Assembly: GCA_025174535.1 (NCBI GenBank)
Contig: JALBUN010000023.1
Coordinates: forward strand, 3,472,001 to 3,536,000
DNA: 64,000 bases
Direction: 5' to 3'
Source of the DNA: Cantharellus purpuraceus
Lineage: Eukaryota; Basidiomycota; Agaricomycetes; Cantharellales; Hydnaceae
This document shows positions 14,511 through 62,200 of this stretch, one piece after another; within the stretch, counting starts at the first letter, position 1, and each line of letters opens with the position of its first letter. Both the position numbers and the translations under genes were made by a program. Under the pieces are notes generated by a model. That model was given only the letters and a program-made list of their open reading frames with translations. It did not search any database and was not told the DNA's origin.

Positions 14511-14664
14511 CTGTCTACAATCTGACGCTGTCCGGTGTTGCTGATAGCTGTCGCTCTCTCTTGCTGTCTGTCGCTGTCTACAATCTGACGCTGTCCGGTA
14601 TATTTTCACTTGATGATACTAGCTTTTGCTGTCTGTCGCTGTCTACAATCTGATGCTGTCCGGT

Positions 14665-15540
14665 TTATTTTAGCTTGCACTCGCGTCCGCACTCGCACTC
14701 ACGCCTCCTCCAGCCCACACTCGCATCCGCACCCGCACTGACGCCCCTCCAGCTCCACTCGCGTTCGCGCTGCACCGCACTCGCGCCCCCTCCAGCCTGC
14801 ACTCGCGTCTGCAGTCGCATTCGCACTCGCGTCCCCTCCAGCCCGCACTTGCGCCCCCTCCAGCCCACACTCGCGTCCGCACTGGCACTCGCATTCGCAC
14901 TCGCGTCCGCACCCGCACTCGCGCCCCTCCAGCCCACACTCGCGTCCGCACTCGCGCCGCCTCTAGCCCGTACTCGCGCGCCCCCTCCAGCCCAAACTTG
15001 GGTCCGCACCCACACTCAGGCCTCCTCCAGCCCAGACTCGCGTCCGCACCCGCACTGACGCCCCTCCAGCTCCACTTGCGTTCGCGCTGCACCCGCACTC
15101 GCGCCCCCTCCAGCCCCCACTCGCGTTCACGCCGCACCCGGACTCGCGCCCTCGCACTCGCGTCCCTACAGCCCACACTCGCGTCCGACTCGCACTCGCG
15201 CCCCCTCTATCCCGTACTCGCGCCCCCTCCAACCCACACTCGCGCCCTCGCACTCGCGTCCCTACAGCCCACACTCGCATCCGACTCGCACTCGCGCCCC
15301 CTCTATCCCGTACTCGCGCCTCCCCTCCAGCCCACACTCGCGTCCGCACCCACACTCGCGCCTCCTCCAGCCCACACTCACGTGCACACCCGCACTGACG
15401 CCACCTCCAGCCCGCACTCGCGTCCACACCCTCACTCGCGCCCCCTCTAGCCCGCACTCGCGTCCGACTCACACTCGCGCCCCCTCCAGCCCACACTCGC
15501 GTCTGCACTCGCGCCCGCACCCCCTCCAGCCCGCATGGGT
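14665..15540. repeat. GC-rich minisatellite (unit A)
   Basis: Degenerate tandem array built from CGCACTCGCGCC, CCCTCCAGCCC and ACACTCGCGTCCGCACC. It gives long Arg/Ala/Ser/Pro- or Gly/Ala/Arg-rich frames on both strands. These are open only because the array lacks stops and should not be called genes. Confidence 0.9.
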
Positions 15541-15874
15541 GCCCGCTGACATGCACCGTGTTGTCCCCGCCACCCAGTCCGTCCCACATGCCCCGCCAGC
15601 ATCCACCCCGGCGCAGGTGGCGACGACGCATACGGTGTACCCCCCGACGACAGAGACGACGACGGCCCGGAGGAGGGCGCACCACTTTCGCCTGCGCACT
15701 AGCGCCCGCACTCGCACCTGCCGTACTTGCCCCTGCCAACATGTATTTAGTGAAAAAATAGTTTAATTCTTTGTTATTACTTTACTTTTTTGAGCAAAGA
15801 GTTATTCAGAGATTAATGGTATTTAAGTTGACAAACGCTAAGGACAAATGGAAAATAAAGATGACATGAGAGAG

Positions 15875-15945
15875 ATTTGAACCTCCAACCAAATAAAAAA
15901 ACACATGCGGCTGACCACTGATCCAAAGTACTCAATGCAACTGCT
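15875..15945 (-). ncRNA. tRNA-derived SINE-like segment, pol III promoter boxes (unit A)
   Basis: On the minus strand TGGATCAGTGGTCAGC (A-box-like) is followed about 30 nt later by GGAGGTTCAAATCTC (B box consensus GGTTCRANNCC). A nearly identical segment occurs in unit B. The cloverleaf is degenerate and the inter-box DNA is T-rich, so this is tRNA-derived rather than a tRNA gene. Confidence 0.55.
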
Positions 15946-16759
15946 CTGCATCATGCTATATATTATAGTACTGCCAAAGGAATATGTATGGACAGATCAG
16001 AGGAGGGTTTGATGTGGTGTATCTGAGTGCATCAAAAGATGTACACATCCAAAATCACATGTACACATCCAAATCAACACATACATATCCATGGTGACCT
16101 CCTGAACTCAATATATGATGTGTGCATATATGCATTTCTAATCCACATGTAAAAGCACTATCCATCCCATAAAATTCTAATCCATGCATAAAAGCATTTT
16201 TTAATGCACTAAATCTAATGCATGCATATAAGATCTACTTGGGTCCTTCCGAAGGAAGGGGTACTCTGCTAGTATAATACAAAAGGCCTAGGTGGGTTGT
16301 GGGCGCACGCTTATGTCAGCTTATCTAATCTGCGCCAGCCTCCCGTTCACCTGCTGTCCGGTCATGTGACAAGTCGCGTGAGGTTGCTGAGTGCGCGCTT
16401 GCAAAAATGAAAATTTTCATTCACTTTCTACCCCCGACCTCCACCAGCTCGCTGTCCACAATCTGTTCTCTACTAGCTCTTGCTGTCTTTTGCTGTCTGC
16501 TAGCTCTTGCTCCCTGTTGCTGTCTACTAGCTCTTGCTGTCTGTCATTGTCTACTAGCTTCTTGCTCCCTGTTGGTGTACTCTTGCTCTCTGTTGGTGTA
16601 CTCTTGCTCTCTGTTGCTGTCTACTAGCTCTTGCTGTGGGTCACTGTCTACAATCTGACGCTGCCCGGTATATTTTAACTTGATACTAGCTTTTGTTGTC
16701 TGTCGCTGTCTGCAATCTGACGCTGTCCAGTTTATTTGACTGCTATAACTAGCTAGCCA

Positions 16760-17350
16760 TCACCCAGCACTCGCGTCCGCGCGCGCACTCGGGCCCCCTC
16801 CAGCCCACAGTCGCGTCCGCACTCGCACTCGGGCCCCCTCTAGCTCGCACTCGCGTCCGCATCCGTACTCGCGCCTCCTCCAGCCCAAACTCGCGTCCGC
16901 ACCCGCACTGACGCCCCCTCCAGCCCTCACTCGCGTTCGCGCTGCACCCGCACTTGCGCCCCCTCCAGCCTACACTCGCGTCTGCACTCGCACTCGCGCC
17001 CATCCAGCCCACAGTCGCATCCGCACTCGCACTCACGCCCCCTCTAGCTTGCACTCGCGCCCCCTCTAGCCCGTACTCGCGCCCCCTCCAGCCCAAACTT
17101 GCGTCCGCACCCGCACTGACGCCCCCTCCAGCCCCCACTCGCGTCCGCACCCGCACTGACGCCTCCTACAGCCCTCACTCGCATTCGCACTCGCGTCCGC
17201 ACCCGCACTTGCGCTGCCTCCAGCCCACACTCGCATTCGACTCGCATCCGCACCCCCCGCGCCGCCTCCAGCCCGCACTTGCGTCCGCATTCGCACTGAC
17301 GCCCCCTCCAGCCCACACTCACGTTCACGCCGCACCCCACACTCGCGCCC
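16760..17350. repeat. GC-rich minisatellite (unit B, first block)
   Basis: Same CGCACTCGCGCC / CCCCTCCAGCCC array as in unit A. It stops where the exon-like fragment begins. Confidence 0.9.
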
Positions 17351-18095
17351 CCTGGCCGTAGGTACTCTATATATCTCCGGCGGATTCAGAGATCGCGAGT
17401 GACGTGCACCGCACGTCGTCCTTTTTCAACGCCCCTCGCGCCGCACATCAACCTCACCATCGAGTTCGCGCCCACCGAGCGCGGCGGACGTCCCACCTGC
17501 CGGGTGCGCAAGTTCAGCGTCTGGCACATCCCCATGAGAAAGGTACCTGCACCCGCCGCACTCCCACCCGCCCCCTCCAGTCCCGGCGAGATTTTTTGGT
17601 TCGCTTTCTACCCCCAACGATCTCCACAAGCCGCTGTTGCGGCCCACAACGTGAGTGACTTGGTGTACTTGGTGTATATAACTAACTATGGCGGTAGGTA
17701 CTCTATATATCGCCGACGATTCAGAGATCGCGAGTGGCGTGCACCACGCGCCGTCCTTTTTCAACGCCCCTCGCGCTGCACATCAACCTCACCATCGAGT
17801 TCGCGCCCACCAAGCGCGGCGGAGGTCCCACCTGCTGGGTGCGCGAGTTCAGCGTCTGGCGCATCCCCCTGAGAAAGGTACCTGCACCCGCCCCCTTGCA
17901 CTCGCCGCACTCGCACCCGCCTCCTCCAGCCCATCTGCCACCCAGGGCAGGCCAGAATCCCACACCACCCATCGCGTCTCTGCATCTCTGACCTCAACAT
18001 TTGCTGCCCCAGCCTGCTCTACAGCACCATCGTAGATGTGGGCGAACGCGTCACACTTGCCGGATATACCTCCGACTTCACATTCTCCAATTCCC
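17351..18095 (+). pseudogene. Captured, duplicated host-exon fragments inside unit B
   Basis: Two copies (17355-17542 and 17695-17878) of a protein-like frame containing RPFSTPLA, HINLTIEFAPT, GGRPTCRVRKFSVW (or GGGPTCWVREFSVW) and HIPMRK or RIPLRK. Each is followed by a GTACCTGCACCC splice donor. Between them lies a short GEIFWFAFYPQR stretch. After a CCCCAG acceptor near 18010, a second exon-like frame reads SLLYSTIVDVGERVTLAGYT to about 18095. Codon-like conservation between the copies, plus donor and acceptor signals, suggest pieces of one host gene captured with an intron. The gene of origin was not recognised. Confidence 0.5.
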
Positions 18096-18194
18096 GCACC
18101 CGCCGCACTCGCTCCTCCACAACTCCCGCATCCGCCGCACTTGCCGCCGCACCCACCGCACCCAACGCACTTGCCCCCTCCGCACCCGCACCTG

Positions 18195-18520
18195 CTCCCT
18201 CCAGCCCACACTCGCATCCGACTCGCATCCGCACCCGCCGCGCCGCCTCCAGCCCCACTCGCGTCCACACCCACACTCGCGCCTCTTCCAGCCCACACTC
18301 GCAGACTCGCATCCGCATCCGTCGCGCCGCCTCCAGCCCGCACTCGCGTCCGCACCTGCACTCGCGCCGCCTCCAGCTCACACTCGCGTCCTCGCGTCTG
18401 ACTCGCACTTGCGCCCTCTCCAGCCCTCACTCGCGCCCCCTGCAGCCCACACTCGCGTCCGCACCCGCACTGTTGTCCGACTCGCGCTCGCACCCCCTCC
18501 AGCCCGCATGCGTGCCCGCT
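18195..18520. repeat. GC-rich minisatellite (unit B, second block)
   Basis: Same array family as 14665-15540, mixed with CGCATCCGCACCCGCCGCGC variants. Confidence 0.85.
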
Positions 18521-18624
18521 GGCGACCGCTCGCGCCTGCGCACTAGCGCCCGCATTCGCACTGCTGCACTTGCCCCCTGCCCCCGCACGCGCGACTTGAC
18601 AAACCCTAAGGACAAATGGAAAAT

Positions 18625-18700
18625 AAAAATGACGAGAGATTTGAACCTGCAACAAAACAGAAAAGATGCATGCAGTTAACCACTGATCCCGGACACAGAC
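18625..18700 (-). ncRNA. tRNA-derived SINE-like segment, pol III promoter boxes (unit B)
   Basis: Minus strand reads GGGATCAGTGGTTAACTGCA (A-box-like) and, about 30 nt on, GCAGGTTCAAATCTC (B box). It is flanked on the same side as in unit A by AAGGACAAATGGAAAATAAA. The A box is closer to a real tRNA here than in unit A. Confidence 0.6.
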
Positions 18701-18924
18701 AGATGCCCATCACGCCATATATTATAGGGGTTTGTCTCAAGTACCACCAAAGGAATATGTATGAATAGATTAGAGGAGGATTGGAAATTTGATGTGGTGT
18801 ATCTGAGTGTATCTGAAAAAGACATACACTTCCAAAATCACACGTACACATCCATGGTGACCTCCTGAACCCACCAGGCCATGACTGCCTGAACCCATCC
18901 ATATATGATGTGTGTATATATGCA

Positions 18925-19210
18925 TTTCTAATCCATGCATGAAAGCACTTCCTAACCTGCACGAAAAAGCACTTCCTAACCCACATGTAAAAGCACTTCC
19001 TAACCCATGCGTAAAAGCATTTCCTAACCCGCACATAAAAGCACTTCCTAACCCACACATAAAAGCACTTCCTAACCCACATGTAAAAGCCTTTTCTAAT
19101 CCCCACGTAAAAGCATTTTCTAATCCCCACGTAAAAGCATTTTCTAATCCACACATAAAAGCATTTTCCAATCTGTGCATAAAAGCATTGTCTAATGCAT
19201 GCATATAAGA
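18925..19210. repeat. ~24-bp tandem array, about 11 copies
   Basis: Copies of TAAAAGCACTTCCTAACCCA with variable ends, becoming GCATTTTCTAATCC towards the right. Unit A has only two or three decayed copies (16130-16220). A 238-codon minus-strand frame through it is an artefact of the periodicity. Confidence 0.85.
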
Positions 19211-19260
19211 TGTGATGACCACCGAAATGGGTCCTTCCGAAGGAAGGGGTCTCACCTAGT

Positions 19261-19355
19261 TTGCTCACATGACGCGTCACATGATGGGAGTCCAGACCGC
19301 TGACTAATAGCTGCTCTGCCATAGCAAACGGCCATGGTAATTTTCCCAGCGGACG
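19261..19355. repeat. Right arm of the broken inverted-repeat element
   Basis: Reverse complement of 13337-13436. It starts one base after the CTAG end of Helitron-like unit B. Confidence 0.75.
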
Positions 19356-19762
19356 CGAATTTATGGCTTCTCCATGCTATATTTTTATGTACACTGCATT
19401 GTCACGGACTCGGACTGCGCGCCAGTGATGATATCTAGTGGTAGCACAAACCACTAAGTATAATTTTCCTGTTGACGATCTATAACATACATATCGGCCT
19501 GTAGTTTCGCACGGGTGTTCTGGCATAGGACGCTCGGGCACGGGGAAGGATGAAGGTGAAAGACAGCCACTACGCATCCCTTACAATTAGCTGGAGGCAA
19601 CATGCTGCGTGAAGCGCCTCTTCGTTTCATAGTGGGACGTCAAGTATTGGGGACATGGTAAACGCAGCTGCTGGCGATGGTATATGGGTATGCTATTGGA
19701 GTGTAAGGCTAGATAGTCCCTAAGGCATAAAGCTATGGATCACCCGGGAATATCAGCGAGGC
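19356..19762. other. Intergenic, 3' of the glycosyltransferase
   Basis: No gene or known repeat recognised. Confidence 0.4.
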
Positions 19763-28815: not shown

Positions 28816-28873
28816 AAATGATGGCAAGGGGGTAACTCTAAACATGAGCTACCCACAATGCAGTCCTTTCTAA

Positions 28874-28918
28874 GACGCTTGTTCGGAATCATGTCAGTAT
28901 ACAATATTCTGATGTATA
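28874..28918 (-). mobile_element. TIR element M, copy a, left piece
   Basis: The first 45 bp of a reverse-oriented M (GACGCTTGTTCGGAATCATG...). Its remainder lies at 36609-37129. The outer flanks of the two pieces carry the same TAA (28871-28873 and 37130-37132), showing that they are one insertion later split by the 28919-36605 unit. Confidence 0.85.
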
Positions 28919-29472
28919 GACGCTTATTCAGAAATACAACAAATACGTATGTACAACCTATTTTCCTCAAATTTTATACAATACACTTCAATTCAAACTT
29001 ATTTTCATATTTCAACATGATTCTCAAATTTTAGATTAAAACATATTTTGATATTTTGGCATAATTCTCAAAAATAATTCTTTTTTTCCTGATTTAGTGG
29101 TGGCAACTCTCTTGAAGGAACATCCAAATATCATTGATTCTTTCTTATACAATACTTATAACATAATTTGAACTATCTTTAATCCCCACCTGGTATTTGT
29201 ATATCTAAATACCCTATATAATACCAATTATATTAATACATACATTCCTATTATATCCATGTAAATAATTATGTTCATCTCAACCAAATGTCTTATCTTT
29301 AAAAGTTTATTAAAATATAGAATATATGTTTATATTTATGAAAATTTCACACATCTGAAATCTTTTAAGATATCCAAATTGTAACTCCCTGGCTTTATGT
29401 ATCATTGAAATTCTGATGTATATCTCATATACATCAGAATATTGTATACTGACATGATTCCGAACAAGCGTC
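28919..29472 (+). mobile_element. TIR element M, copy b (left end of composite unit)
   Basis: 554 bp. 15-bp terminal inverted repeat GACGCTTATTCAGAA / GACGCTTGTTCGGAA. AT-rich interior, and a subterminal hairpin TTCTGATGTATAT-CTC-ATATACATCAGAA. No coding capacity. Left flank is ATA and right flank is TAG, so on its own this copy has no target duplication. Confidence 0.88.
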
Positions 29473-29551
29473 TAGGGAGGTCATTTTAAAAACAAAAATC
29501 ATCACCTTATATCATCAACAAGCTTCTTTCTCCATAGATTTAGACATGCCA

Positions 29552-30049
29552 TTATGAATTCTTATCTTCATTGGTATGTCTGGACACTGTCCAACACAGC
29601 AAAGCCAATAGTATACCAATACTAGTTATGTAGATCATGTGCACTGTATGGCCAAGATATAGTTTCTGCCTATTTATATCTGGGCCTGGCTGTCTAACAA
29701 ACGCCTGATTCACATGTGTGGTTATAATGTGTGCATATCCAGAGGTTGGATCAGAACCACTTACAAATCTGTTGGTTTTATTCAGAAAACCTGCAAATTC
29801 TGCTACAAAAATAGGATCACTTTCATTATAGCCTATTTTATCAGGTTGTAGACCAAGAAATACATATTTGATATGAGGATACTTTGAAAGCTGGAACACT
29901 TCACCTTCAGCATATGAACGGTCCAGATACTGCCCAAAGGGGTACCAGTCACACGTTGCACAATTAGCTAGCCGGTGTGGATTGCTGTGAAAAGGCTTTT
30001 GGTAAAACTGTTGATTGAGACGCTGTTTCAGTAATGGATCAGTCTCCAT
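29552..30049 (-). CDS. Cassette protein with C-terminal membrane anchor, unknown function
   Basis: 165 codons from ATG 30049 (METDPLLKQRLNQQFYQK). The soluble part contains CATCDWYPFGQYLD and PHIKYVFLGLQPDKIGYN. A single hydrophobic helix (MIYITSIGILLALLCW, about residues 138-153) lies near the end, with a short charged tail, suggesting a tail-anchored protein. It lies immediately downstream of, and on the same strand as, the transposase. No family recognised. The frame is intact despite the surrounding decay. Confidence 0.55.
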   Translation of the reverse strand: METDPLLKQRLNQQFYQKPFHSNPHRLANCATCDWYPFGQYLDRSYAEGEVFQLSKYPHIKYVFLGLQPDKIGYNESDPIFVAEFAGFLNKTNRFVSGSDPTSGYAHIITTHVNQAFVRQPGPDINRQKLYLGHTVHMIYITSIGILLALLCWTVSRHTNEDKNS

Positions 30050-30231
30050 AGATACCTATAAGTATAAAACATACAAATATTCAATTTTATTCTGGGAAAA
30101 AAATTTACAGTTGAATGTAGCATAGGTATACAATAATACTATTACTATTGTCTTTCCAATACTCTTTAATACATTCTGTAGATTTAAAGCTTGATGTTGC
30201 TTCCCAAGTTTTCTCTGCATAACATTTCCAT

Positions 30232-31580
30232 TTAACTAAATATTCTACGTACTTTCCTTTTTCTTTGCCTTATTATTTGTTCTACTTCATTTTCAGTCTC
30301 ATAATGCATCTCCACATCATACTCACATCTTTCTAATAGTCGTTGTTGAGATAGAGTCATCTTGTCAACATCTTCTGCTCTTTCCAGTAATGATCTGGGT
30401 GGCTCAATATCTGGGTCCTCTTCCTCAGGGTAATCAAAATATTGTTCACACCATTTTTCATGATAAGGGGATGGTTTGATCTTACGTAGTTCTACAAATT
30501 TCTTAATATTCCATAATAGACATGCTACCTTTAATTCCAGATTAAAGACAGCAGGATTTGTAGTTCTAATAGATCTCTTATTATCAAATTTTTCAAACAA
30601 TATTGCAAACCCTCCAAAGAATGCTTCTACTGTTGAACTAAAGGCACCAAACTTCTTATTAAAAATCTTTTCTTCAGGTTTAAGTTCAACATTTTTTGGC
30701 TTACGAAAAGGATAAAAGAAGTTCTTAGGCTTTAATATACTTGCCTTTACTACTTCTGGAATAGCAGATGGATAAGCTCCATCAAAGCCTATCTGATCAT
30801 TCTTATCTATTTTATTCCATACAGCCATCTCTACAAACATTTTTGCATCAGGATTTAGTTTACATGCCAATGAAGGTGAGGTGAATAGAACCATTTGATT
30901 AATGTCAATGCATACTTGAGTACGAAATCCTGCCTTTTTAAATTTATGTGAGTACCCCTCTTCAGATGTCGATCCAATCAAAATTCCTCTTGTATCATGA
31001 CCATCAAGAAGTAATGTCACTGATTCCATTTTTGGAGGATTCTTTATAAGAGCTGATAATATCCTTATTATTATATTTGAGAACATTGTACGCAGTGAAT
31101 CAGTAACTTGTTTATCTAGATCAAAGTTAAGATGATGCAGACGACCATAAAATTCCTTATGAACATCATAAAAGCTACTTGATGGCATGAAATTTCCTAT
31201 TTCTTCATAAGTAGGACCTTTGAGTAGATGATATAGTACTAACAAGCCTTTTTCTATCTCTCTATAAGGTGTAGAATGTTCTTCAACTGAAAACAATACC
31301 ACAAGAAAGAAAAATACTGGTATTGGTCCAAGCTTGTTATATACTACTTTTTTACATCATCCATGTCATTCATATCTTTTAGTTTTGTTCTATGATATTT
31401 TTTGTGTTCTAAGACAGGCCACTTTGTGTATAGAAAATTCCAATGATTGTCCATCAACTTATTATATGCTCTGTCCCTTTGATCATTCCACATTTTAAGT
31501 TGCTGAAGCTCTTTTTCTTCTTTCTCTTTTTGCTCTTTCTCTTTTTGCTCCTTTGTGCATTTTTGCTGGTCTGAGGGCAT
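30232..31580 (-). CDS. DDE transposase, PIF/Harbinger-IS5 (DDE_Tnp_4-like), in two overlapping frames
   Basis: Frame 1 (31580-31344, 78 codons) is a Lys/Glu-rich coiled start and ends GTA AAA AAG TAG. Frame 2, one base back, runs from about 31346 to 30232 and encodes the catalytic core. The core has LLLDGHDTRG (first Asp, residue 100 counted from the GTG at 31302), FRTQVCIDINQMVLF, GFDGAYPSAIP (second Asp, 174) and FGAFSSTVEAFFGGF (Glu, 226), the latter equivalent to the VERAFG helix of Harbinger enzymes. Frame 2 has no ATG before the core, so it needs frame 1 by -1 slippage on A AAA AAG or by one extra A. A very similar DDE protein type is known from Rhizophagus (recollection, not searched). 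The M elements in the window, with 3-bp duplications, are plausible substrates. Confidence 0.75.
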
Positions 31581-31676
31581 TTTGACTAAGATACTCTTAT
31601 ATTACAGTAAAACAAAAATATGTTCATTTTTTTGATAATTGAATTTTAAATTAAATAATATTTATTCTATGAAGCT

Positions 31677-32327
31677 ATGTTGTCTGTCTCTAAGCAAGTT
31701 GTTCGTAAAATATCTACTGTCTTTGTTAAAAAAGAACCAGAGAATGATGAAAATCCTTTGTATATAGACTCTGACACCATCTACATAAAATTCAGATTAA
31801 GAAATCCCCCAAAGGACTTCTTTCCAGCTGGATCGGTTTCTCAGGAAAGAGATAAAACACCAGAAGCACTGTACAATAAGATGATTGAAAAGGGCAATGA
31901 AATAAGTAATTCAACCTGGATTCAACAAAATCATTGTATGTCAAGTCTGCAAACCATGCAACAGGATAATCTGCCTAGTTGTAATATTTCTATTGCTAGA
32001 GAAACTGGCAAGAAGTGTGATATTTCTATTGCTGGGGAAACTTGTAAGAACTGTGATGTGTATAACAATTTGGTTACATCAATGGTTGTTGCATTGAAAC
32101 AACAGCAGAGAGTTTTCAAGAAAAGTAAAATCACAATCTATGGTATGATCATAACTAAGGATGGTAGGTTAAAATTATATGAAACCACCAATAACAATCA
32201 GGGTGTTTCAATTGTTGTATATCCTTCCTCTGGATACAGCATAGAAGCTCAGTTTGAAGAGTGTTCTAATGCTATTGACATTATATTCCAAAGTATAAGA
32301 AATCAGATGTTCAAAGAATCCTCATAA
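31677..32327 (+). CDS. Cassette protein of unknown function, 216 aa
   Basis: ATG 31677 to TAA 32327, divergent from the transposase frame (97 nt between starts, a possible shared promoter in AT-rich DNA). It begins MLSVSKQVVRKISTVFVKKE. The middle has an imperfect repeat (ISIARETGKKC / ISIAGETCKNC) giving spaced cysteines. The end folds plausibly as alternating strands (ITIYGMIITKDGRLKLYETT, GVSIVVYPSSGYSIEAQFEE). No domain recognised. Confidence 0.5.
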   Translation: MLSVSKQVVRKISTVFVKKEPENDENPLYIDSDTIYIKFRLRNPPKDFFPAGSVSQERDKTPEALYNKMIEKGNEISNSTWIQQNHCMSSLQTMQQDNLPSCNISIARETGKKCDISIAGETCKNCDVYNNLVTSMVVALKQQQRVFKKSKITIYGMIITKDGRLKLYETTNNNQGVSIVVYPSSGYSIEAQFEECSNAIDIIFQSIRNQMFKESS

Positions 32328-32619
32328 GGAGTTGATTTAAAAGTCCTAGTTTCTACACTCACAACATTTTTCATCTATTTTCACTTGGATAATTTCAAGA
32401 TTTGAACTTTTGTTCACACAACAATAAGTACCATTAGTATCATGATGAGTATTTTTGAATGTTCAGAGCTCTTAGGACATTTAATATCCTTACAATCTGT
32501 AACTACAGATGTAGTAGTTATATGATTGCACTTCCAAGTAATTTGAATTTTTCACTATCACCACACATGCCTTCATTTGAGTGAATAAAAATATTGCATA
32601 TTCACTTATCTGATTTATC

Positions 32620-32799
32620 TTATACTTGTTGTAGTGCACATAGTGGTAGCTGAATCTCATTGTCATCATAAGTAACAGTTATTAGCAAAGTGTCATCTGA
32701 CAAAGTGCCAGTTACTAATGTAACAATACCTGTCACTGTCATTTGTGTTCTTGCATTGATAAATGATACCTTATCACCAATCTCGGGTATATTCAACAT
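32620..32799 (-). CDS. Small cassette ORF, 59 aa
   Basis: ATG 32799, TAA 32620. It reads MLNIPEIGDKVSFINARTQM, then TVTGIVTLVTGTLSDDTLLI and ends LPLCALQQV. The short alternating beta pattern resembles a small barrel (KOW/SH3-like) but this is only a visual impression. Confidence 0.4.
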   Translation of the reverse strand: MLNIPEIGDKVSFINARTQMTVTGIVTLVTGTLSDDTLLITVTYDDNEIQLPLCALQQV

Positions 32800-32837
32800 G
32801 GTGTCTCTGGTTATTATATATTAATTTTCAAAACTCA

Positions 32838-33083
32838 TTATTTCTCATCTAATTTCCTATCAAGTATATCTACAAACTTCTTAAATGCTTCAAAACACTG
32901 TAGAACATTCTTTCTACTATTAATATGTTTCATACCTGTTACTGTTACAGGAAAACAACACCTTACATTTGTTATCACTTCTGAAAACAACCCTTCTGTG
33001 ATAGCATGATCAAGCTCTCTTGTAACAGTTACTAGGTAAAACTGGGGGACTTTTCTCGATGTTTGAATGCAAGGTATTGTCAT
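32838..33083 (-). CDS. Small cassette ORF, 81 aa
   Basis: ATG 33083 (MTIPCIQTSRKVPQFYLVTV), TAA at 32838. It ends with an amphipathic helix (FEAFKKFVDILDRKLDEK). It lies head-to-tail with the 59-aa and 55-aa ORFs on the same strand. No family recognised. Confidence 0.4.
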   Translation of the reverse strand: MTIPCIQTSRKVPQFYLVTVTRELDHAITEGLFSEVITNVRCCFPVTVTGMKHINSRKNVLQCFEAFKKFVDILDRKLDEK

Positions 33084-33160
33084 TTCCTCTAAAGCACTTT
33101 TTCCCTTATTCTTCCTTATCTAAGTATGTAAAAATTTTCTTGAAGACTCCTTTAAACATT

Positions 33161-33328
33161 TCACATCATCTTTTTGTAATCAAAACTGAGGATCTCATCA
33201 TCAGTATCTAAAGTAATATCTCTAAAATCTGTCTCAAAAAACTGTTTAGTCCATTGTGTGTCAACCATTATACCATAATCCCAAAGATCATGAGAACTCC
33301 AATCATTGCACTTCTTATCTTTACCCAT
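33161..33328 (-). CDS. Small cassette ORF, 55 aa
   Basis: ATG 33328, TGA 33161. Acidic, with MGKDKKCNDWSSHDLWDYGI at the start and DITLDTDDEILSFDYKK at the end. Unknown. It is third in a compact same-strand row with 32620-32799 and 32838-33083. Confidence 0.35.
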   Translation of the reverse strand: MGKDKKCNDWSSHDLWDYGIMVDTQWTKQFFETDFRDITLDTDDEILSFDYKKMM

Positions 33329-33821
33329 GATGTCAATAAAGAAGGATATATAAAATTTATTTACTAGATATGTGCATAGTTCTGAAGAGCAGAATGTCCA
33401 TATTTTTATCTAATATTTATAAATTGAATTATATATATTTTCTAAAGTTGTCAATAGCCAGATGCATGCACTCGTTCTGAATACTACAACAAAGTCCCAT
33501 ACAGAATTCCCTGTCCTTTCATCTATCATTCTTCTACCAGTTCCTTGTTTCCTATCTTGCCAGTCTTTCATTCCAAATTCTTTGCTGCATAGCTAAATAG
33601 GTGTACCAGCCGATTGGATATTATCATATCATGGTAATGACGTCGGATGGAAGGTCACCTTGTCAGGAGCAGTTTGATCACATTATCAAAGGACAGCCTT
33701 TTGGCTGTGAGGGTTGATAATGATGCACTTACTGAGCAGACAGTAGGTGAGACTTTGCAGCGGCATGGTGTACCAGATAATTGAATCGTTGTCCTTGAGC
33801 AGCCCGATGATGTCACTCGGT

Positions 33822-34375
33822 GTCGGTTCGCTTATGGAATAGATCCTATAAGCCTGCGTGCAATGGTCCTAGCAAGCAGACGGTGTGTAACGCAGTTGTT
33901 CAGCACTCCAAAGATCAATCAGGGCGAGGGGTACGTAACAGGGAAGTGGGATAGTGCTCTGTGGTTGGATGAGGATGGGAGCAAAAGGTTGGTCCCGATG
34001 GCTGATCGTGCTCTGTGACTGGATGACAATGCGGAGCCCGGTTGGGAGGTACGCGAAAGCTGGTTTCAGGAGAAGCAACCTCTCGGTGGCGGAGGGAAAT
34101 CTGATCGTTGAACCAAGGTGTTTTACCTCAGTGTAGAGATGATGGATTGTGATGTAGAGTGTAGACTTAGAGCGTTGGCTGAAAACTTGTTTTTTGATTC
34201 CAAAGGCAAAAACTAGCGCCCTTTTATATACAAATTCCCAGGGCACAACGACACAATATGAGGAGCAAATGATGCAAGAAATGCTGATCAAGCCAGCTGA
34301 CGAAGCGTGTGAAGTTGAGCTACTAAAGGGGAAATCATGGAGAAATGAAACGACAGATAGGGACATCATTAGACT
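33822..34375 (-). repeat. Fragment of a long LTR family (L3), inside the cassette
   Basis: From TGTCGGTTCGCTTATGG it matches the reverse complement of 41560-42147, including the TTTTATATACAAATTCCCAG promoter-like stretch and CGACGCGTGTGAAGTTGAG-type flanks, then stops. A third, shorter copy is at 39950-40230. The fragment separates the coiled-coil gene from the small ORFs. Confidence 0.75.
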
Positions 34376-34459
34376 GCTCATGGACAGCCATTCACTCCAA
34401 GGTGACCTTGTATCCTACGTCTTCGGAGGCTTACATTACTGGGTTCTCCCTCTACATCT

Positions 34460-35506
34460 TTTTCTTGAACTAGGAATTTGAGATTGATCAGAGTCTGAAT
34501 CAGATCGTTCCTTAGACCTTTTTTCTTGATGCCTTGAACTAGGAGTTTGAGATCGTTCATCACCTTTTTTCTTGATGCCTTAAACCTTGAGTCATTCCTT
34601 GCTTCCATGTTTGAAAATTAATCCTATTACCATCTACGTCATATGATGACATTTCATTCTTTCTAGTATATATTGTAGATAGTTTTCTAGGCTCACCATT
34701 TATGAATAATTCCATTCTATTTAGTCTACAAGACTGATCTGAGTCTATAAGTATATAGTCTACACCTCTTTTCACTATCTTAAATGTCACCTTTCTGGTA
34801 CCATTTTCCTGTAACCTTGTTACCTCCTGTTCTTGTTTTCCAGCCCAGTGATTCATATCAAATTTCCAGTCAACAATCTCAGATATTATTGCTTTATATT
34901 TATCACCCTGTTTCTGAAGTTTATTAATGTCTGTTCCAAGTTCCACTACAGTATCATCTGTTTCTACAATCCACTCATGCACTTCAGATTTCCATTCCAC
35001 AATGTCTGATATTGTTGCAATACATCTATTAACCTGTTTCTGAAGTTTATGAATATCTGTTCTATAGTCCAATATAAGATTCTCTGCATTATGTGTATTG
35101 ACCTGTTGATGAATATCTGTTCCATGGTCTGATATTGTGGCAACACACCTATTAACCTGTCTCTGAAGTTTATGAATATCTGTTCCAAATCCTGATACAA
35201 TATCATTCATTTCACTCATCCATTCATCTAAATTCTCTTTCCTGTCTGTCAAAGTAGTTATAATTGTATTTTTTCCTCAACCTGTTTCTTAAGCACCTGA
35301 ATTTCCTGACTCTGGGAATTAACCTGTTGTTCAAGCATAGTGATCTGCCTATCCTTTTCACTCATCCAAGACTTGACATTTATAAGATCAGATATTAATT
35401 CATCTTTTACTTCCATTTGACTTGCCATAGCTTTTATCAGTGCATCATTGTCACTTATCCAGCCTTTGATTGCTTTTATATCTTCAAAGATTTGTGGCAT
35501 TTTCAA
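34460..35506 (-). CDS. Coiled-coil cassette protein, frame broken at an A6 run
   Basis: Part 1 (35506-35258, 82 codons, MKMPQIFEDIKAIKGWISDN) ends shortly after QVEEK. Part 2 (35252-34560) continues the coiled coil in the other frame. The switch lies at an A6 run (plus strand T at 35269-35274); one extra A would join them into about 310 aa. Part 2 has a repeated unit, GTDIHKLQRQVNRC(V/I)ATISD, present about four times, then a likely folded end (VTFKIVKRGVDYILIDSDQS). The tail past another A6 run (near 34565) would read into Ser/Arg-rich repeats (SSRHQEKRSKERSDSDSDQS). Fibre-like or DNA-bridging roles are conceivable; nothing identifies it. Confidence 0.5.
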
Positions 35507-35646
35507 ATCCCTCTCTGCTTATAAAACAGAAATGAAAAAACATAATAATCATTTTTTCTGAACATTTGATATTTTGTATAGGCAGTAGATATATACATCT
35601 TGCTTTCTTAATAAAATGATTATTATGTTTTTATGTTATAAGCATT

Positions 35647-35973
35647 ATGAAGATGCTCTCTTTTATGCTTCAATGCAAGATAGAGTTTGATAGAAGAGTT
35701 AATGATTGGTATATATCTCGGATAGGATCCCTCCATGATTTGTTTCTGAGGTAAGTTCCTTTATAAATATCAAGGTTCCAATCACTGACTTTATACAGAT
35801 GTACTGATGGCACACTTCTGGAACAGAAATTAACAGAGTTATATACTAGTATGGAGCAGGATCATTATTTTCCACCACTTTGGATGGAAAATCTGATGGT
35901 ATTGCACCCTAAAGTACGAGGGATAGTCATACAGTCTCATGTTAGAACAAGATTATCTACCACTATGCCCTAA
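35647..35973 (+). CDS. Two-exon cassette gene, 92 aa
   Basis: Exons 35647-35750 and 35799-35973; the intron (48 nt) has canonical GTAAGT...TTATACAG and restores one frame. The protein starts MKMLSFMLQCKIEFDRRVND and continues CTDGTLLEQKLTELYTSMEQ, YFPPLWMENLMVLHPKVRG, ending at TAA 35971-35973. The intron matches the size of host introns, so this is expressed, if at all, as nuclear pol II mRNA. Not included among unspliced ORFs. No family recognised. Confidence 0.5.
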
Positions 35974-36039
35974 CTAAGTTACTTTGTTTTAAAAATAGCT
36001 TCACTGCATTAAAGGTGTTTGTTTCCAAGACTTTCCTAA

Positions 36040-36605
36040 GACGCTTATTCAGAAATACAACAAATACGTATGTACAACCTATTTTCCTCAAATTTTATAC
36101 AATACACTTCAATTCAAACTTATTTTCATATTTCAACATGATTCTCAAATTTTACACAATATACTAGATTAAAACATATTTTGATATTTTGGCATAATTC
36201 TCAAAAATAATTGTTTTTTTCCTGATTTAGTGGTGGCAACTCTCTTGAAGGAACATCCAAATATCATTGATTCTTTCTTATACAATACTTGTAACATAAT
36301 TTGAACTATCTTTAATCCCCACCTGGTATTTGTATATCTAAATACCCTATATAATACCAATTATATTCATATATACATTCCTATTATATCCATGTAAATA
36401 ATTATGTTCATCTCAACCAAATGTCTTATCTTTAAAAGTTTATTAAAATATAGAATATATGTTTATATTTATGAAAATTTCACACATCCGAAATCTTTTA
36501 AGATATCCAAATTGTAACTCCCTGGCTTTATGTATCATTGAAATTCTGATGTATATCTCATATACATCAGAATATTGTATACTGACATGATTCCGAACAA
36601 GCGTC
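36040..36605 (+). mobile_element. TIR element M, copy c (right end of composite unit)
   Basis: 566 bp, nearly identical to copy b and in the same orientation. It keeps an ACACAATATACTAG stretch deleted in b. Left flank TAA, right flank ATA. Confidence 0.88.
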
Positions 36606-36608
36606 ATA

Positions 36609-37129
36609 GGAGATATACATCAGGATTTCAATGATACATAAAGCCAGGGAGTTACAATTTGGATATCTTAAAAGATTTCGGATGTGTGAAATTTTCATAA
36701 ATATAAACATATATTCTATATTTTAATAAACTTTAAAAGATAAGATATTTGGTTGAGATGAACATAATTATTTACATGGATATAATAGGAATGTATATAT
36801 GAATATAATTGGTATTATATAGGGTATTTAGATATACAAATACCAGGTGGGGATTAAAGATAGTTCAAATTATGTTACAAGTATTGTATAAGAAAGAATC
36901 AATGATATTTGGATGTTCCCTCAAGAGAGTTGCCACCACTAAATCAGGAAAAAAACAATTATTTTTGAGAATTATGCCAAAATATCAAAATATGTTTTAA
37001 TCTAGTATATTGTGTAAAATTTGAGAATCATGTTGAAATATGAAAATAAGTTTGAATTGAAGTGTATTGTATAAAATTTGAGGAAAATAGGTTGTACATA
37101 CGTATTTGTTGTATTTCTGAATAAGCGTC
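36609..37129 (-). mobile_element. TIR element M, copy a, right piece
   Basis: Continuation of 28874-28918 in reverse orientation. It ends AATAAGCGTC, followed by the TAA duplication. Confidence 0.85.
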
Positions 37130-37132
37130 TAA

Positions 37133-55083: not shown

Positions 55084-57250
55084 CACTCACAATGTGTCCT
55101 CACCAATCCATTTGAGTCCCATCCCATTGACGAAATAAATGAATTTCTCTTTGGGAAGGCCTTTAGTGAGTATATCAGCTACTTGCTCATTCGTAGGAAT
55201 GTACTGAGGATCAAGTTCCTCCTCTTCGATCTTCTCCCTAATGAAGTGATATCGGACTGCAATGTGCTTCATCCGATTGTGCAACTTGGGGTTTCATGCA
55301 AGCACAATGGCAGATTGACTGTCAACAAGAAGTGTGGTTGGTGAGTTTTGTGTCCTCCCAATTTCTGACAGAAATATTCTCAGCCACACTATCTCCTTTG
55401 CAGCATGTGCATCAGCCATATACTCCGCCTCTGTACTTGACTGTGCAGTGGAGGTTTGTTTCTTGGAACTCCAGCTTATGGTGCCACCACAGATGAGGAA
55501 GACATAGCCGGTGATAGAACTGGTCATTTTTGTCACCTGCCCAATCAGAATTGATGAAACCAGTAAGTTCAGCACTTTTCTTGGATCCATCATAAACTAA
55601 GACCAAGTCCATAGATGCTTGTTCAGAAATACAACAAATATGTATATACAACCTATTTTCCTCAAATTTTACACAACACACTTAGATCAACATGATTCTC
55701 AAATTTTACACAATATACTAGATTAAAACATATTGTGATATTTTGGCATAATTCTCAAAAATAATTCTTTTTTCCCTATTTAGTGGTGGCAACTCTCTTG
55801 AGGGAACATCCAAATATCATTGATTCTTTCTTATACAATACTATTAACATAATTTGCACTATCTTTAATCCCCACCTGGTATTTGTATATCTAAATACCC
55901 TATATAATACCAATTATATTAATACATACATTCCTATTATATCCATGTTCATCTCAACCAAATGTCTTATCTTTTAAAGTTTATTAGAATATAGAATATA
56001 TGTTTATATTTATAAAAATTTCACACATTGGAAATCTTTTTAAGATATCCAAATTGTAACTCCCTGGCTTTATGTATCATTGAAATTCTGATGTATATCT
56101 CATATACATCAGAATATTGTATACTGACATGATTCTGAACAAGCATCATAGAGCCGTGCAAATAGCGAAATACTCGCTTGAGTGCCATCCAGTGTTCACT
56201 ACCTGGATTGGCACTGAACTGGCTTAATATGCCCGCTGCATGACCTAAGTCTGGACATGTGCCAAGCATTGCATACATGAGCGAGCCAACTGCACTCTGG
56301 TAAGTTCTGGCATTGATTTCAGGGGCCATGAGTCGTGCTAATGTTAGATGTTAGCCATAGGGGTAGGTATCAGCTGTGACTCATTCATGCCATGCCGTTC
56401 TAGAATGTCCAAGATGTATCTTCATTGCGACAGAATCAGCATGTGCCTGGTAGGATCCCTTGTTACCTCTATTCCTAGGATCCATCAGGCTTCTCCAAGG
56501 TCAGTTATCTTGAATCAATCCTTGAGCTCTAGTTTGACCTTCACTATCTCAGCCAGTGAGTTTGACATAATTAGAAGGTCATCAACATATATTGCAATGA
56601 TCACTGTTGTTCCCTGCTTTGAGGAGTAAAAGATGCCATGGTCTGAGTGGCAGTGAGTGAAACCTAGAGTCTCAAACTCAGTGTGTATGGTTTTATACCA
56701 TTCTTGGCTAGCTTGCTTAAGACCATATAGACTTCTCCTTAGCTTCCAGACGATGTTTGGCTTGCAAAAACCTGGTGGTAAGTTGATATATATTTATTCA
56801 TCAAGCTTGCTGTTCAGGAACACTGTCTTAATGTCCATTTGTTGCAGGTCCCAGTCATTGTGTGCAATAAAGGCCAGGAGGATTCAGATTGAGGTAAATT
56901 TGACCACCAGAGCAAAAGTTTCCATGTAATCAATTCCTTTGACCTGGGTAAATCCACAAGCAACAAGTCAGGCTTTGTATCAGATCACCTCTCCACCTGG
57001 ACCTCATTTTACCCTGAAGACCCATTTACAGTCTACCACTTTCCACCCATTTGGCCAATCAACTTCATCATATAGGTGCGTTTTAATGAACGATAATAGC
57101 TCTTTGTTGCAGGCTTCTTGCCAGTATGGCACCTCTGGAGTTGACATGGCTTCTTCATAAGTCATCAGCTCAATAATGGTGCATGCAACCTTGGCTTGAT
57201 GTCTTCCTACTGAATTTGGCTGTGGTCTAGGTCCATACGATGTTATCTCA
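55084..57250 (-). pseudogene. Ty1/copia relic 2 (RT and RNase H), interrupted by element M
   Basis: In transcript order from about 57160: EVPYWQEACNKELLSFIKTH, VVDCKWVFRVK, LQQMDIKTVFLNSKLDE, LPPGFCKPNIVWKLRRSLYG, IIAIYVDDLLIMSNSLAEIV (catalytic YVDD intact), TYQSAVGSLMYAML and RYLHGSM. M (55614-56147) follows, then MDLVLVYDGSKKSAELTGFI, ISWSSKKQTSTAQSSTEAEY and YIPTNEQVADILTKGLPKEK. Several TGA/TAG stops. The M insertion is exactly reversible: removing it with one ATA rejoins GSMDLV. Confidence 0.85.
55614..56147 (+). mobile_element. TIR element M, copy d
   Basis: 534 bp. Perfect 15-bp TIR GATGCTTGTTCAGAA. ATA duplication at 55611-55613 and 56148-56150. Inserted in the copia RNase H region. 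Confidence 0.93.
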
Positions 57251-57514: not shown

Positions 57515-58041
57515 TGTTATGACTATATTCATTAATGCCCAGATCCCCATCTGATCCACTCAGATCCCTGCGCATATAAAATCTATACTCCATTTGGAAA
57601 CTGCCACATCTCCCTCTACCTGTCCAATTGTCACTGCCGATTCCGCCCATCTGTCTCCAGTTCCGATTGATGCATCAGCATCACCATAGGAACCTGGACA
57701 TCCATCCCCGTTGGACTCAGATATACTCATGTAAGGCTGTCGGCCTCAGAGACCCATCACCAGAGTAATTATTATTAGATTTTCAATATGTATTTAAGTT
57801 GCCCGACTGGGGACTTCATTCCCCAGTTCAAATATTGAATCACACCTAGTTCCTAAGTCCAATCCTAACTCTCTAAGTCATACTCCATCTCCGAAATCTT
57901 GGACACCGGTGTTGGTGAGGGCGCAGCACATAAGCTGAAGCCAAGTCTGTTCTGACCCCCATGACGTACCCGACTCCTTCTCTGACTCCAACCAAACCTC
58001 CAACCCAATGTCTGACCCCCAATCGGACCTAGTGCATAACA
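57515..58041 (+). repeat. 5' LTR of gypsy element B
   Basis: 527 bp, TGTTATGACTATATTC...GTGCATAACA, reverse complement of the solo LTR orientation. Left flank CTGTA belongs to the copia fragment. Confidence 0.9.
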
Positions 58042-58073
58042 GTATATTCAAACTGCCATACTCACTCCTACCA

Positions 58074-59181
58074 ATGCCACAATCCACCACCAATTCCAAA
58101 CACACACAAACCATTGAGGTGCCTGCTCCCAGCATCGACACCATCCCTGAGGTCGTCGAAGAACCGACAGACCACAATGAAGAGGATGACACTCTGCCCT
58201 CCCCAAACCTAGTGCAAGCCATCTCCCTGCTTGCCAGCAGCATCCATACACCACAAGTTCCTAAGTCCCAGACCAAGGTCCAGGAACCCAACCCATTCAA
58301 TGGCTCCAATCCATGCAAGCTCCAGCCATTCTTGGTGCAATGCCAGTTGAATTTCTGTGACCGCCCAGATGTGTTCACATCTGATCGGGCAAAGGTCACC
58401 TTTGCCATGTCCTATCTCAAGGGCACCACACTGGACTACTTCAAGCCAGTGCTCATGGATGACTCTGATGACCCGATATGGTCAGATGACTACTCTGACT
58501 TCATCTCCAAACTTCAGACCAATTTCGGTCCTTACAACCCCAAGGCCAATGCCGAGAATGAACTTGATCGACTTCAGATGAAGGAAAATCACAAAATCAC
58601 AAAATACATTGTGAGTTTCCAGCAGCTAGCCCCAAAAGTCCAATGGGGCGACGCCACACTCCGATGCCAATTTTACGTTGGTCTCCCATCCCACATCAAG
58701 GACGAGATATCACATGTCGGTAAGCCAGATACTTTGGTTAACCTTCGCAAGCTTTCCCAATCCATCGACGCCCATTATTGGGAACATCAATCTGAGGTCT
58801 CCTGCAAAAATTCGGCTAACAACAAATTGGACAAATCATCGGACAAGACCCCAAAGTCCAACAAGGGGTCCAATAAGAGGACCACCACCAACTCAGGACA
58901 GAAGTCAAACAACAGGTAATGCTGCTGCTTCCGGTTCCGGTCAGAACAACTCCGGCACCAGTGATAACTCCAGAGCTCGCAAGAGCACTCCAGACCTCTC
59001 CACCAAGCTGGGGAAAGATGGAAAACTTACCCAGCAGGAACACCAGCGCCGCATGGACAACAACCTCTGCCTGTTCTGCAGAAAGCCTGGCCACCAAGCC
59101 AAGGATTGCAACAAGGCAACCTCATCCACAGCCAAGGCAAAGGGCTGTGCTGCCAATGCCATGATGGACCAAAAAAAATAA
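58074..59181 (+). pseudogene. Gag of element B with frame change before the zinc knuckle
   Basis: ATG 58074 (MPQSTTNSKH), capsid-like core open to TAA 58917-58919. The nucleocapsid part (TTGNAAASGSGQNN, CLFCRKPGHQAKDC near 59075) is in the +1 frame from the codons AAC AAC AGG TAA and stops at 59181. Capsid length (~280 aa) suits chromoviral Gag. Either a programmed +1 shift or a defect shared with element A. Confidence 0.8.
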
Positions 59182-59259
59182 GCAGTCCTATAACCTCTGT
59201 ATGGGCTGAGGGCTGCATTGGTACTCCCATACAACAAACAAGGTCTGCCTGAATGCATC

Positions 59260-62200
59260 CACACTTTCCCACTCTGACTCCCTTACCCTCCACGTCTACT
59301 CCAACTCCATCCCCGATACTGCTATCCAAGCATTAATTGACTCCAGTTCTACTCACTGTGTCCTTGATTCCTCTTTTTCTGATTTACATAAACTCCATAC
59401 ATACACCATAACTCCAATATTGCTCTGATTATTTGATGGCACTACTAATGCTGTTATTTCATGAGCTATAGATCTGTCTATCCATTTTTCTGTTGGAGAA
59501 ATCCAGAACCTTACATTCTATGTTACTCCACTTGACTCCAGCTGTTCTGTGGTTCTTGGACATAATTGGCTCACCCGCTACAATCTGTTGATTGACTGGG
59601 CATTGGGCCATATCACATTCCATTCCCCAGTACAGGCTGTGTCATTCCCAATGTCACCAGAAACTTTAGGTGCGAAACTATCTTCCGCCTCTGCTGACTC
59701 CGCTCCGATAGATACTCCGTCTACCCCTCCATCTATATCAATGGTGGACACTATGGTCTTCACCAGACTAAGCAAACTGGATGGCTCTCGCACATTCCAG
59801 GTTCACCTGTCCGATCCGATATTCCTCACCGCCGGTTCTGCCCAATCAACTCCACCGGACCTATCTATGGTTCCTAAGGAGTGTCATGAGTTCGCTGACA
59901 TTTTCAGCAAGTCTAAAGCCAACTCCCTAGTGGAACACTGACCATACAATCTCAAGATTGAGTTGGATGACAACTCCACCCCTCTGCTTGGCCCTATCTA
60001 CTCGCTATCCCAAAAAGAGCTACTGGCTCTCTGAACATTCATAGACGAGAACTTGGCCACAGGCTTCATCCGCTCATCCCTATCGCCCCATGGAGCTCCG
60101 GTCCTATTTGTCCGCAAAAAGGACGGATCACTCCATCTATGTGTTGACTTCCATGGACTTAACAAGATCACCAAGAAAGACCGATACCCAATTCCCCACA
60201 CCGCGGACCTACTCGAGAGTCCTCGAAAGGCTAAGATCTATTCCAAAATAGATCTCCAACATGCCTACCATCTAGTCCACATCCGAGAAGGTGATGAAAG
60301 GAAAACAACTTTCCGCATGCGATATGGATCTTTCAAATGGTGTGTCATGCCCTTCAGACTAACCAATGCTCTGGCTGCATTCCAGAGGTTCATGAATGAT
60401 ACCTTTGCTGACCTCCTCAATGTAACCATCCTCATTTACTTGGACAACATTTTGGTATATTCAGACAATGAAGAAGAACATCAGACACATGTCCAAGAAG
60501 TACTCCAACGTCTCCGAAAACATGGCCTCTTTGCCTGCGCTGACAAATGCAAATTCCACTCTGACTCAGTCGAGTATCTAGGCTATATCCTCTCTCCGGC
60601 AGGACTGACAATGTCTGATGACAAAATCAAAGCCATACAGGAATGGCCAGAACCGCAGAAAGTTAAAGACATACAGCCCTTCCTGGGGTTCACCAACTTC
60701 TACCACCACTTCATTCACGGCTACTCTGATATCACTGTTCCGCTCACCCGACTTACTAGGAAGGGTACCCAATGGAATTTCACTGATGAATGCAGACAGA
60801 GCTTTGAGACCTTGAAAAAGGCCTTTACTTCCGCTCCGATACTGACTCATTGGGTTCCAGACGTGCTATCCTATTAGAAACCAATGCCTCCAACTATGCA
60901 CTTGCCGTGATCCTGTCCATCATCCGGAGAGATGATGGACAAGTCCATCCGATCACTTTTCACTTGCATACATTTACGCCCCCTGAACTGAACTATGATG
61001 TCCATGACAAAGAGCTCCTTGCCATATATGAAGCCTTCTGGATATGGAGACACTACCTTGAAGGCCCCTTGATCCGGTGGACATCATAACTGACCACAAG
61101 AACTTGGAATACTTCTCCACAACGAAACTACTCACCTGGAGACAAGTCCAATGGTCTGAATACCTATCTCAGTTCAATCTTGTTATCTGTTTCCATCCTG
61201 GTCGACTTGGAGCAAAGCCTGATGCATTAACTAGACGCTGGGATGTCTACCCTAAAGAGGGGAATAGCGACTATGCCACTGTAAACCCACACAACTTTCA
61301 TCCTGTGTTCACTAATGAGCAGCTGGCATCGTCCCTACGAGCATCCACCCTCATGACTCCCACCCTCTGAGCTGTCACCATTATGGACATCAACCAACTC
61401 CACTCCGACATCCACTCATCACTCTGATCCGATCCTATTGCAGTTAAACACTTGGACAACCCTTCTGATCCGAAGTGGTCACTTGACCCCAAAGGACACC
61501 TCTGACACAACAACCAGATATACATCCCCAACGCCAACAGTCTCTAACTCCAAGTTTTGCAGTATTATCATGATCACTCAATTTTGGCCATTTTGGGCAA
61601 AATCACACACTAGGATTAATCTGACGAGACTACATATGGCCAAAAATGCAAGAATACATTCAACACTACTGTAACTCCTGCACCACATGTATGCGCTCAA
61701 AATCACAAAGGCACAAACCCTACAGAACGCTTAAGCAACTTCCAGTCCCAGAGCAACCATGGAACTCCATCTCCATGGATTTCATAGAGAAGCTCCCCCC
61801 ATCGCTCGGATACGACACCATACTCGTAATTGTCGACAGGTTCACTAAACAATCACTATTCATTCTGACGCATGACACCATCACCTCCGCCTCACTAGCT
61901 AAATTGTTCATTCTCCATGTATTCTCTAAACATGGAGTCCCATCACATGTCACATCCAATCAGGGCTTGGAGTTTGTCTCCTCCCTCTTCCACACATTAG
62001 GAAAGGCTCTTGACATGAAACTTCATTTCACCTCTGGATACCATCCAGAAGGAGATGGACAAACGGAATAAATGAATCAGTCCCTGGAACAATATCTCCA
62101 AGTCTATTGTAACTATCAACAAGACAACTGGGCTGATCTACTTCCGATCGCAGAATTTGCCTACAACAACGCTCCAAACGCGACTACCAGCATCTCTCCG

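Follow-up and report, generated by a model that had tools for sequence, protein, structure and literature searches.

Layout of the unit in the window

The window analysed here, a stretch of 64,000 nucleotides from the basidiomycete Cantharellus purpuraceus (contig JALBUN010000023.1, positions 3,472,001 to 3,536,000 of the forward strand), carries a composite-like unit of 7,687 bp at 28919-36605, which was delimited by direct reading of the sequence and by repeat finding. The unit consists of two copies of a repeat, M, placed as long terminal direct repeats (LTDRs) around an internal region (INT), and it lies within a third copy, M-a. We consider it likely that it is one copy of a family of composite-like LTDR-INT-LTDR DNA transposons in a basidiomycete, and that it moves as a whole. 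Its parts are as follows, in window coordinates.

28871-28873, no strand: left TAA target duplication of the interrupted M-a, read directly (right copy at 37130-37132)
28874-28918, minus strand: first part of M-a, the M copy that received the unit, 45 bp, one ATA included
28916-28918, no strand: left ATA target duplication of the unit
28919-29472, plus strand: M-b, the left LTDR, 554 bp, with a 12-nt deletion
29473-36039, plus strand: INT, the internal region, 6,567 bp
36040-36605, plus strand: M-c, the right LTDR, 566 bp
36606-36608, no strand: right ATA target duplication of the unit
36609-37129, minus strand: second part of M-a, 521 bp
37130-37132, no strand: right TAA target duplication of M-a

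M-b and M-c have the ends GACGCTTATTC...GAACAAGCGTC, and the typical length of M is 566 bp. Their common orientation, the ATA duplication at the outer flanks only and the unequal inner flanks (TAG after M-b, TAA before M-c) had been described in an earlier note made from this stretch of DNA, and all three are borne out by direct reading and repeat finding. The same note had placed the unit inside a third M flanked by TAA. This is also correct, although its coordinate 28873 is one base off: M-a adds up to 45 + 521 = 566 bp, has the opposite orientation to M-b and M-c and is flanked by TAA on both sides. The larger half of M-a is closely matched by solo M copies elsewhere (L039, 100% over 526 bp; L056, 99.8% over 527 bp). 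M-b and M-c are less alike than most pairs and have no variant in common, variants being scored against the majority of 41 M. Two diverged solo M are also present in the window, one at 55613-56147 (90% to M-c) with ATA on both sides and one at 63419-63965 (about 76-85%) with CTT on both sides.

Copies, insertion sites and arrays in the assembly

The assembly (40.15 Mb, 50 contigs) was searched with the first 2,167 bp of INT, and 40 places matched at 98-100% identity (the best 40 of 65 candidates). Twenty of these places were read together with the window, giving 21 units, 20 of which count as full units, window included. All 21 have identical inner 3-mers (INT starts with TAG and ends with TAA), a constant junction position and M at both ends; the match of the right M in L022 stops at position 319. 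When INT ends were located by pattern with at most three mismatches, 58 left and 60 right ends were found in the whole assembly. The lists of M junctions contain 57 of the left and 59 of the right ends, and the remaining two, read individually, also adjoin M. Every INT end found is therefore bounded by M. Cassette copies bounded by other sequence, which the earlier note had named as a refutation of its reading, were not found among the INT ends of the assembly, a count that copies lacking the end bases would escape. Because the inner 3-mers and the junction are constant in 21 units, and controls with reversed patterns gave 0 matches, the layout is not due to chance. It is a stable LTDR-INT-LTDR family with dozens of copies, not a one-off composite. 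The left-end pattern of M occurs 379 times at up to three mismatches, and subtraction of the approximately 114 M assigned to units or arrays (58 + 61 junctions, 5 shared) gives a rough estimate of about 265 solo M. We rejected the idea that C36 and C37 are duplicate contigs, since the flanks of their units differ and the units are hence separate insertions.

The outer 3-bp duplication is perfect in 17 of the 20 full units (window included). For the solo copies, 40 putative cases were drawn from M with an exact 34-base left end; one of them (L053) is the right M of a unit and was dropped, and 35 of the remaining 39 have equal flanking 3-mers. The target shows a preference at the 52 sites with perfect duplications: C|TNA|G is exact in 20 (0.4% expected), TNA occurs in 35 and TWA in 30, and there is a C at -1 in 32 and a G at +1 in 41. 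Repeat copies that carry the 3 bp once at the matching position were found for L010, L025 and L027, and likewise, judged from alignment ends, for L011 and L015. A search with five joined left flanks for a solo M beside a unit at duplicated insertion sites was uninformative (best 40 of 2,279 candidates): the flanks of L009, L011 and L012 matched their own loci only, and those of L010 and L013 also other repeat copies. The window itself contains Gag- and reverse-transcriptase-like open reading frames (ORFs), recognised by eye, at 57939-60877; L011, L015 and L027 have inserted into sequences related to these.

Tandem arrays, in which one M lies between two INT, were observed at five places (C45:1750k, C45:2949k, C38:12k and two in C44). 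For instance, the dimer at C45:1742-1758k has TTA as both outer 3-mers, and any two of its three M are 2 differences apart. Another array, in G000:C44 (19,130 bp; L083 and L084), is a partial INT-M-INT-M-INT-M arrangement spanning 15.7 kb. An assembled circle was considered for C44 and rejected, because its units differ: the repeats are 99.62% identical over the longest alignment (8.5 kb) and therefore are not one circle read twice.

Older copies are represented by three relics (L079, L081 and L082), in which M at about 76-78% identity (main stretch) stands directly before an INT start at 80-93% identity; L082 has one further M stretch at 71%. The M of these relics is nearer to the diverged solo M at 63419-63965 of the window (84-96%) than to young M. 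As the relics keep the M-INT junction with both parts diverged, the association of M and INT is older than the present burst. Possible 3' end stretches of two relics, where a right-hand M was sought, held no M or INT match.

The transposase and other contents of INT

INT is mostly of 32-33% G+C, with 39-40% at 33-35 kb of the window. Its contents are listed below, the transposase first.

30232-31580, minus strand: DDE transposase (DDE_Tnp_4-like), split in the window by a short frame-breaking indel near 31345
30108-30269, minus strand: chromodomain-like stretch (LVKWKCY...TWEA), in a different frame from the transposase
29552-30049, minus strand: 165-aa ORF, no Pfam match; open frame length constant in 21/21 copies
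31677-32327, plus strand: 216-aa ORF without known relatives; a search gave no match
32620-32820, minus strand: short ORF (66 codons between stops), length unchanged in 20/21 copies
32838-33119, minus strand: short ORF (93 codons between stops), length unchanged in 18/21 copies
33161-33409, minus strand: short ORF (82 codons between stops), length unchanged in 12/21 copies
33802-34380, no strand: passenger repeat, its inverted ends being GAGCAG...CTGCTC; similar stretches occur at other places in the window
34560-35518, minus strand: coiled-coil ORFs, one continuous frame in some copies

The ORF that the earlier note took to be spliced turns out to contain no intron but a frame-breaking indel: L018 and L026 have an uninterrupted transposase ORF of 449 aa across this position, and in L023 the open frame likewise has 456 codons. 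A catalytic triad is proposed at D118, D192 and E244 (numbering of a 374-aa frame), and these residues are invariant in 35 of 35 alignment rows. PF13359 (DDE_Tnp_4) is present in 58 of 65 relatives of the transposase, and 42 carry PF00385, which corresponds to the chromodomain-like stretch. We take the DDE_Tnp_4 family of Pfam to be a marker of PIF/Harbinger. Modelling of the structure from the single sequence was useless (pLDDT 35.6), whereas the alignment-based version worked. VIA-align with the predicted structure had DDE recombinases among the matches listed; the 50 shown include none under the name Harbinger, which is evidence in neither direction. There was no sequence match in the PDB. 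Eight of the 65 relatives carry organism names, six from Mucoromycota and two from Mortierellomycota (P0022, P0030, P0039, P0041, P0044, P0053, P0055 and P0064). With named relatives outside the basidiomycetes, a basidiomycete host and an AT-rich INT, horizontal transfer at some time is possible.

M encodes no transposase, its ORFs being only short: the longest stop-to-stop frame wholly within M-c has 63 codons, and frames crossing an M edge reach 84. Pfam scans of ten window ORFs and six L026 ORFs gave no match to a His-Me finger nuclease, and none to a reverse-transcriptase domain among the INT ORFs scanned. The passenger repeat is reduced to little beyond its ends in L022. The coiled-coil ORFs contain a minisatellite of SDSDQ-type repeats (about 34480-34600 of the window), which varies in length between copies such as L018 and L026. 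Outside the unit, a skewed GC-rich stretch lies at 14600-19400 of the window, and both of its strands hold long ORFs that look repetitive.

Mode of spread and relation to known transposons

The left and right M of one unit differ on average at 2.05 positions (20 units, gaps not counted) compared with 10.49 for shuffled partners, and 0 of 20,000 shuffles were as low as the real pairs. In 13 of 20 units no other M is closer than the partner. Two further pairs were compared: that in C29 is identical, and that in C36 has 12 differing columns and lengths of 555 and 565. The divergence within pairs (2.05 of 566, about 0.36%) equals that of INT between units. Variants are reshuffled both in M, where the four-gamete test fails in 207 of 528 site pairs, and in INT (528 of 1,378). 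The pattern observed is one of concerted evolution within a unit, with exchange between its M and those elsewhere. Moreover, L024 and L028, which lie at different loci with TTA and TTT duplications, respectively, carry the same 17 M variants and have mutually closest INT, indicating that the unit moved as a whole there.

Transposition of the whole unit explains these features best, probably by the following mechanism. The INT-encoded transposase, of the DDE_Tnp_4 class and hence PIF/Harbinger-like, would recognise the imperfect inverted ends of about 15 bp found on every M, cut the outermost pair of ends and insert the whole unit of 7.7-8.3 kb at C|TNA|G-like sites; the 3-bp duplication and the target preference are observed in the family for unit insertions and solo M alike. 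Since a single M has both ends, it could also move alone, and solo M may be products of non-autonomous movement or of recombination within a unit, between its left and right M. Recombination between M copies would likewise generate the M-INT-M-INT-M arrays that we observe. After insertion, conversion may keep the two M of a unit alike, and segments may be swapped with other M copies.

Several observations weigh against movement of the whole unit by such an enzyme. Plain whole-unit cut-and-paste does not predict that M diverges five times more than INT, but between units the left M differs by 1.85% and INT by 0.36%, and the two divergences are not significantly correlated (Mantel r = 0.13, p = 0.22). 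In 7 of 20 units some other M is closer than the partner, and in three of 20 (the window, L014 and L025) the pair lacks any common M variant. Unequal outer 3-mers are found in 3 of 20 full units (L012, L014 and L016), and 4 of the 39 sampled solo M are without equal flanks. The flanks of L014 (G000:C1:455602-465401) derive from two separate repeat positions, and neither its M nor its outer 3-mers agree; this is therefore a rearranged copy, probably a recombinant between two insertions. As to the enzyme, the Pfam match of the query transposase itself (21.3 bits) is below the curated cut-off of 24.8, the transposase frame is broken in several of the 21 copies, and the chromodomain-like stretch is not joined to this frame in any of the 21. 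Foldseek with the predicted structure gave no match at E <= 0.001. A Myb/SANT domain had no Pfam match in the window and L026 ORFs scanned, where a diverged domain could be missed.

Some of these observations would also be expected if INT spreads mainly by recombination, in which a circle or broken molecule with INT and M pairs with a resident solo M to form M-INT-M, and the older solo M contributes the outer duplication. The gap between M and INT divergence and its lack of significant correlation fit this route, as do the M of a unit, which both look as young as INT yet differ between units. The rate of imperfect duplications in units (3 of 20) is close to that in solo M (4 of 39), although by our own arithmetic only about 0.2 would be expected were the insertions as young as INT, and the window and L025 are clean insertions with unlike M on the two sides. 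On the other hand, in L024 and L028 an M pair and its INT arrived together at a new site, and simple crossing-over with a circle would leave unlike M on each side, contrary to the 13 units with a nearest or joint nearest partner. The same pattern is explained by ordinary conversion, acting inside units and between them and other M, and L014 is an example of unequal 3-mers produced by a later rearrangement. We regard spread mainly by recombination as unlikely. Integration of a circle had been named earlier as the process that would overturn transposition of the unit; the outer duplication is present in most units, but recombination among M copies clearly occurs.

In bacterial composite transposons and IS26-type pseudo-composites, two smaller mobile units in direct orientation bound a cargo, and the outer ends are duplicated. 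The fungal unit shares the direct flanking mobile units and the duplication at the outer ends with them (these systems are discussed in PMC9587614), but its transposase sits in the cargo and the flanking M are non-coding. An opportunistic composite of this type, formed when two independent M chanced to flank and moved a cargo, would account for the layout at a single locus, for M found alone with its own ends and duplication, and for the unequal TAG and TAA inner flanks, as if separate M insertions had first bracketed INT. It is nevertheless very improbable for the present element, given the constant junction in 21/21 units and at INT ends genome-wide, the diverged relics that keep this junction, and an M without transposase, although it may describe the ancestral origin. 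Hence the earlier proposal of composite transposition stands in so far as the unit behaves as a single element that is present in many copies, ends at its outer M termini and has a 3-bp duplication; accidental bracketing of the bacterial style is not supported, because the ORFs of M are all short, the transposase lies centrally, the junctions are constant in the units read and the diverged relics retain the M-INT junction. An LTR retrotransposon, or a non-autonomous LTR element with a replaced internal region, is suggested by the long direct repeats, the solo repeats and the near-identical pairs within units, but is scarcely credible for an element with inverted repeats at its ends, a preferred 3-bp C|TNA|G target and an INT that encodes a DDE transposase without any reverse-transcriptase match in the scanned ORFs.

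The closest counterpart of the family seems to be KolobokP, LTDR-INT-LTDR DNA transposons reported from seven animal phyla (PMC9587614, Kojima and Bao 2022). Both have the LTDR-INT-LTDR layout, LTDRs with their own short inverted ends, a DDE transposase in INT, solo LTDRs with target duplications, (LTDR-INT)n-LTDR arrays and 5'-RR...YY-3' termini. The LTDRs of KolobokP are about 450 or 660 bp long, compared with 566 bp for the fungal M, and its duplications are 3-4 or 4-5 bp, compared with 3 bp (PMC9587614). Its transposase belongs to the Kolobok superfamily, and the fungal one matches DDE_Tnp_4 in Pfam scans. KolobokP usually has a His-Me nuclease, for which the fungal ORFs scanned gave no match, but some published KolobokP appear to be without it (PMC9587614). 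INT copies with one LTDR missing are reported for KolobokP (PMC9587614), but none was seen among the 58 left and 60 right fungal INT ends.

In its enzyme and target the fungal family resembles the PHIS superfamily (PIF/Harbinger, ISL2EU and Spy), with a DDE_Tnp_4-type transposase, a 3-bp duplication with TNA core and short inverted ends (PMC4482050, Han et al. 2015). It shares the C|TNA|G target with the NuwaII group of PHIS. NuwaII elements, however, average about 4.7 kb, have inverted ends mostly starting with GG, compared with GA in the fungus, and possess a Myb/SANT protein, which found no Pfam match in the fungal ORFs scanned; moreover, the long direct repeats that enclose the fungal coding region are unlike NuwaII (PMC4482050). 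Canonical Harbinger elements have 3-bp duplications, and no composite layout is seen in the part of PMC12730594 that covers them. Among the open-licence titles and starts of abstracts listed, the only report of this layout that we found is that of KolobokP (PMC9587614), and other reports or a Repbase entry may exist.

We tentatively suggest, as a minor possibility, that this class II element re-makes both LTDRs from a single M in each round, in the manner of LTR elements but without reverse transcription, either by INT entering and duplicating a resident M or by transposition through a circle with one M. If so, M and INT would differ in age, the M copies forming a network that stays in place and INT being the mobile partner, a reading suggested by the diversity gap (1.85% versus 0.36%) and the near-identical M pairs. 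The KolobokP report (PMC9587614) presents DNA transposons that are composite-like and have long direct repeats at their termini as a single animal lineage. That a basidiomycete has this layout together with a PIF/Harbinger-like transposase suggests that the layout arose a second time, probably independently, and therefore that it brings some advantage. With 58 left INT ends, an estimated 265 or so solo repeats and several arrays in a 40-Mb assembly, C. purpuraceus offers a good system for asking how the two ends stay alike and whether the internal part enters resident repeats.

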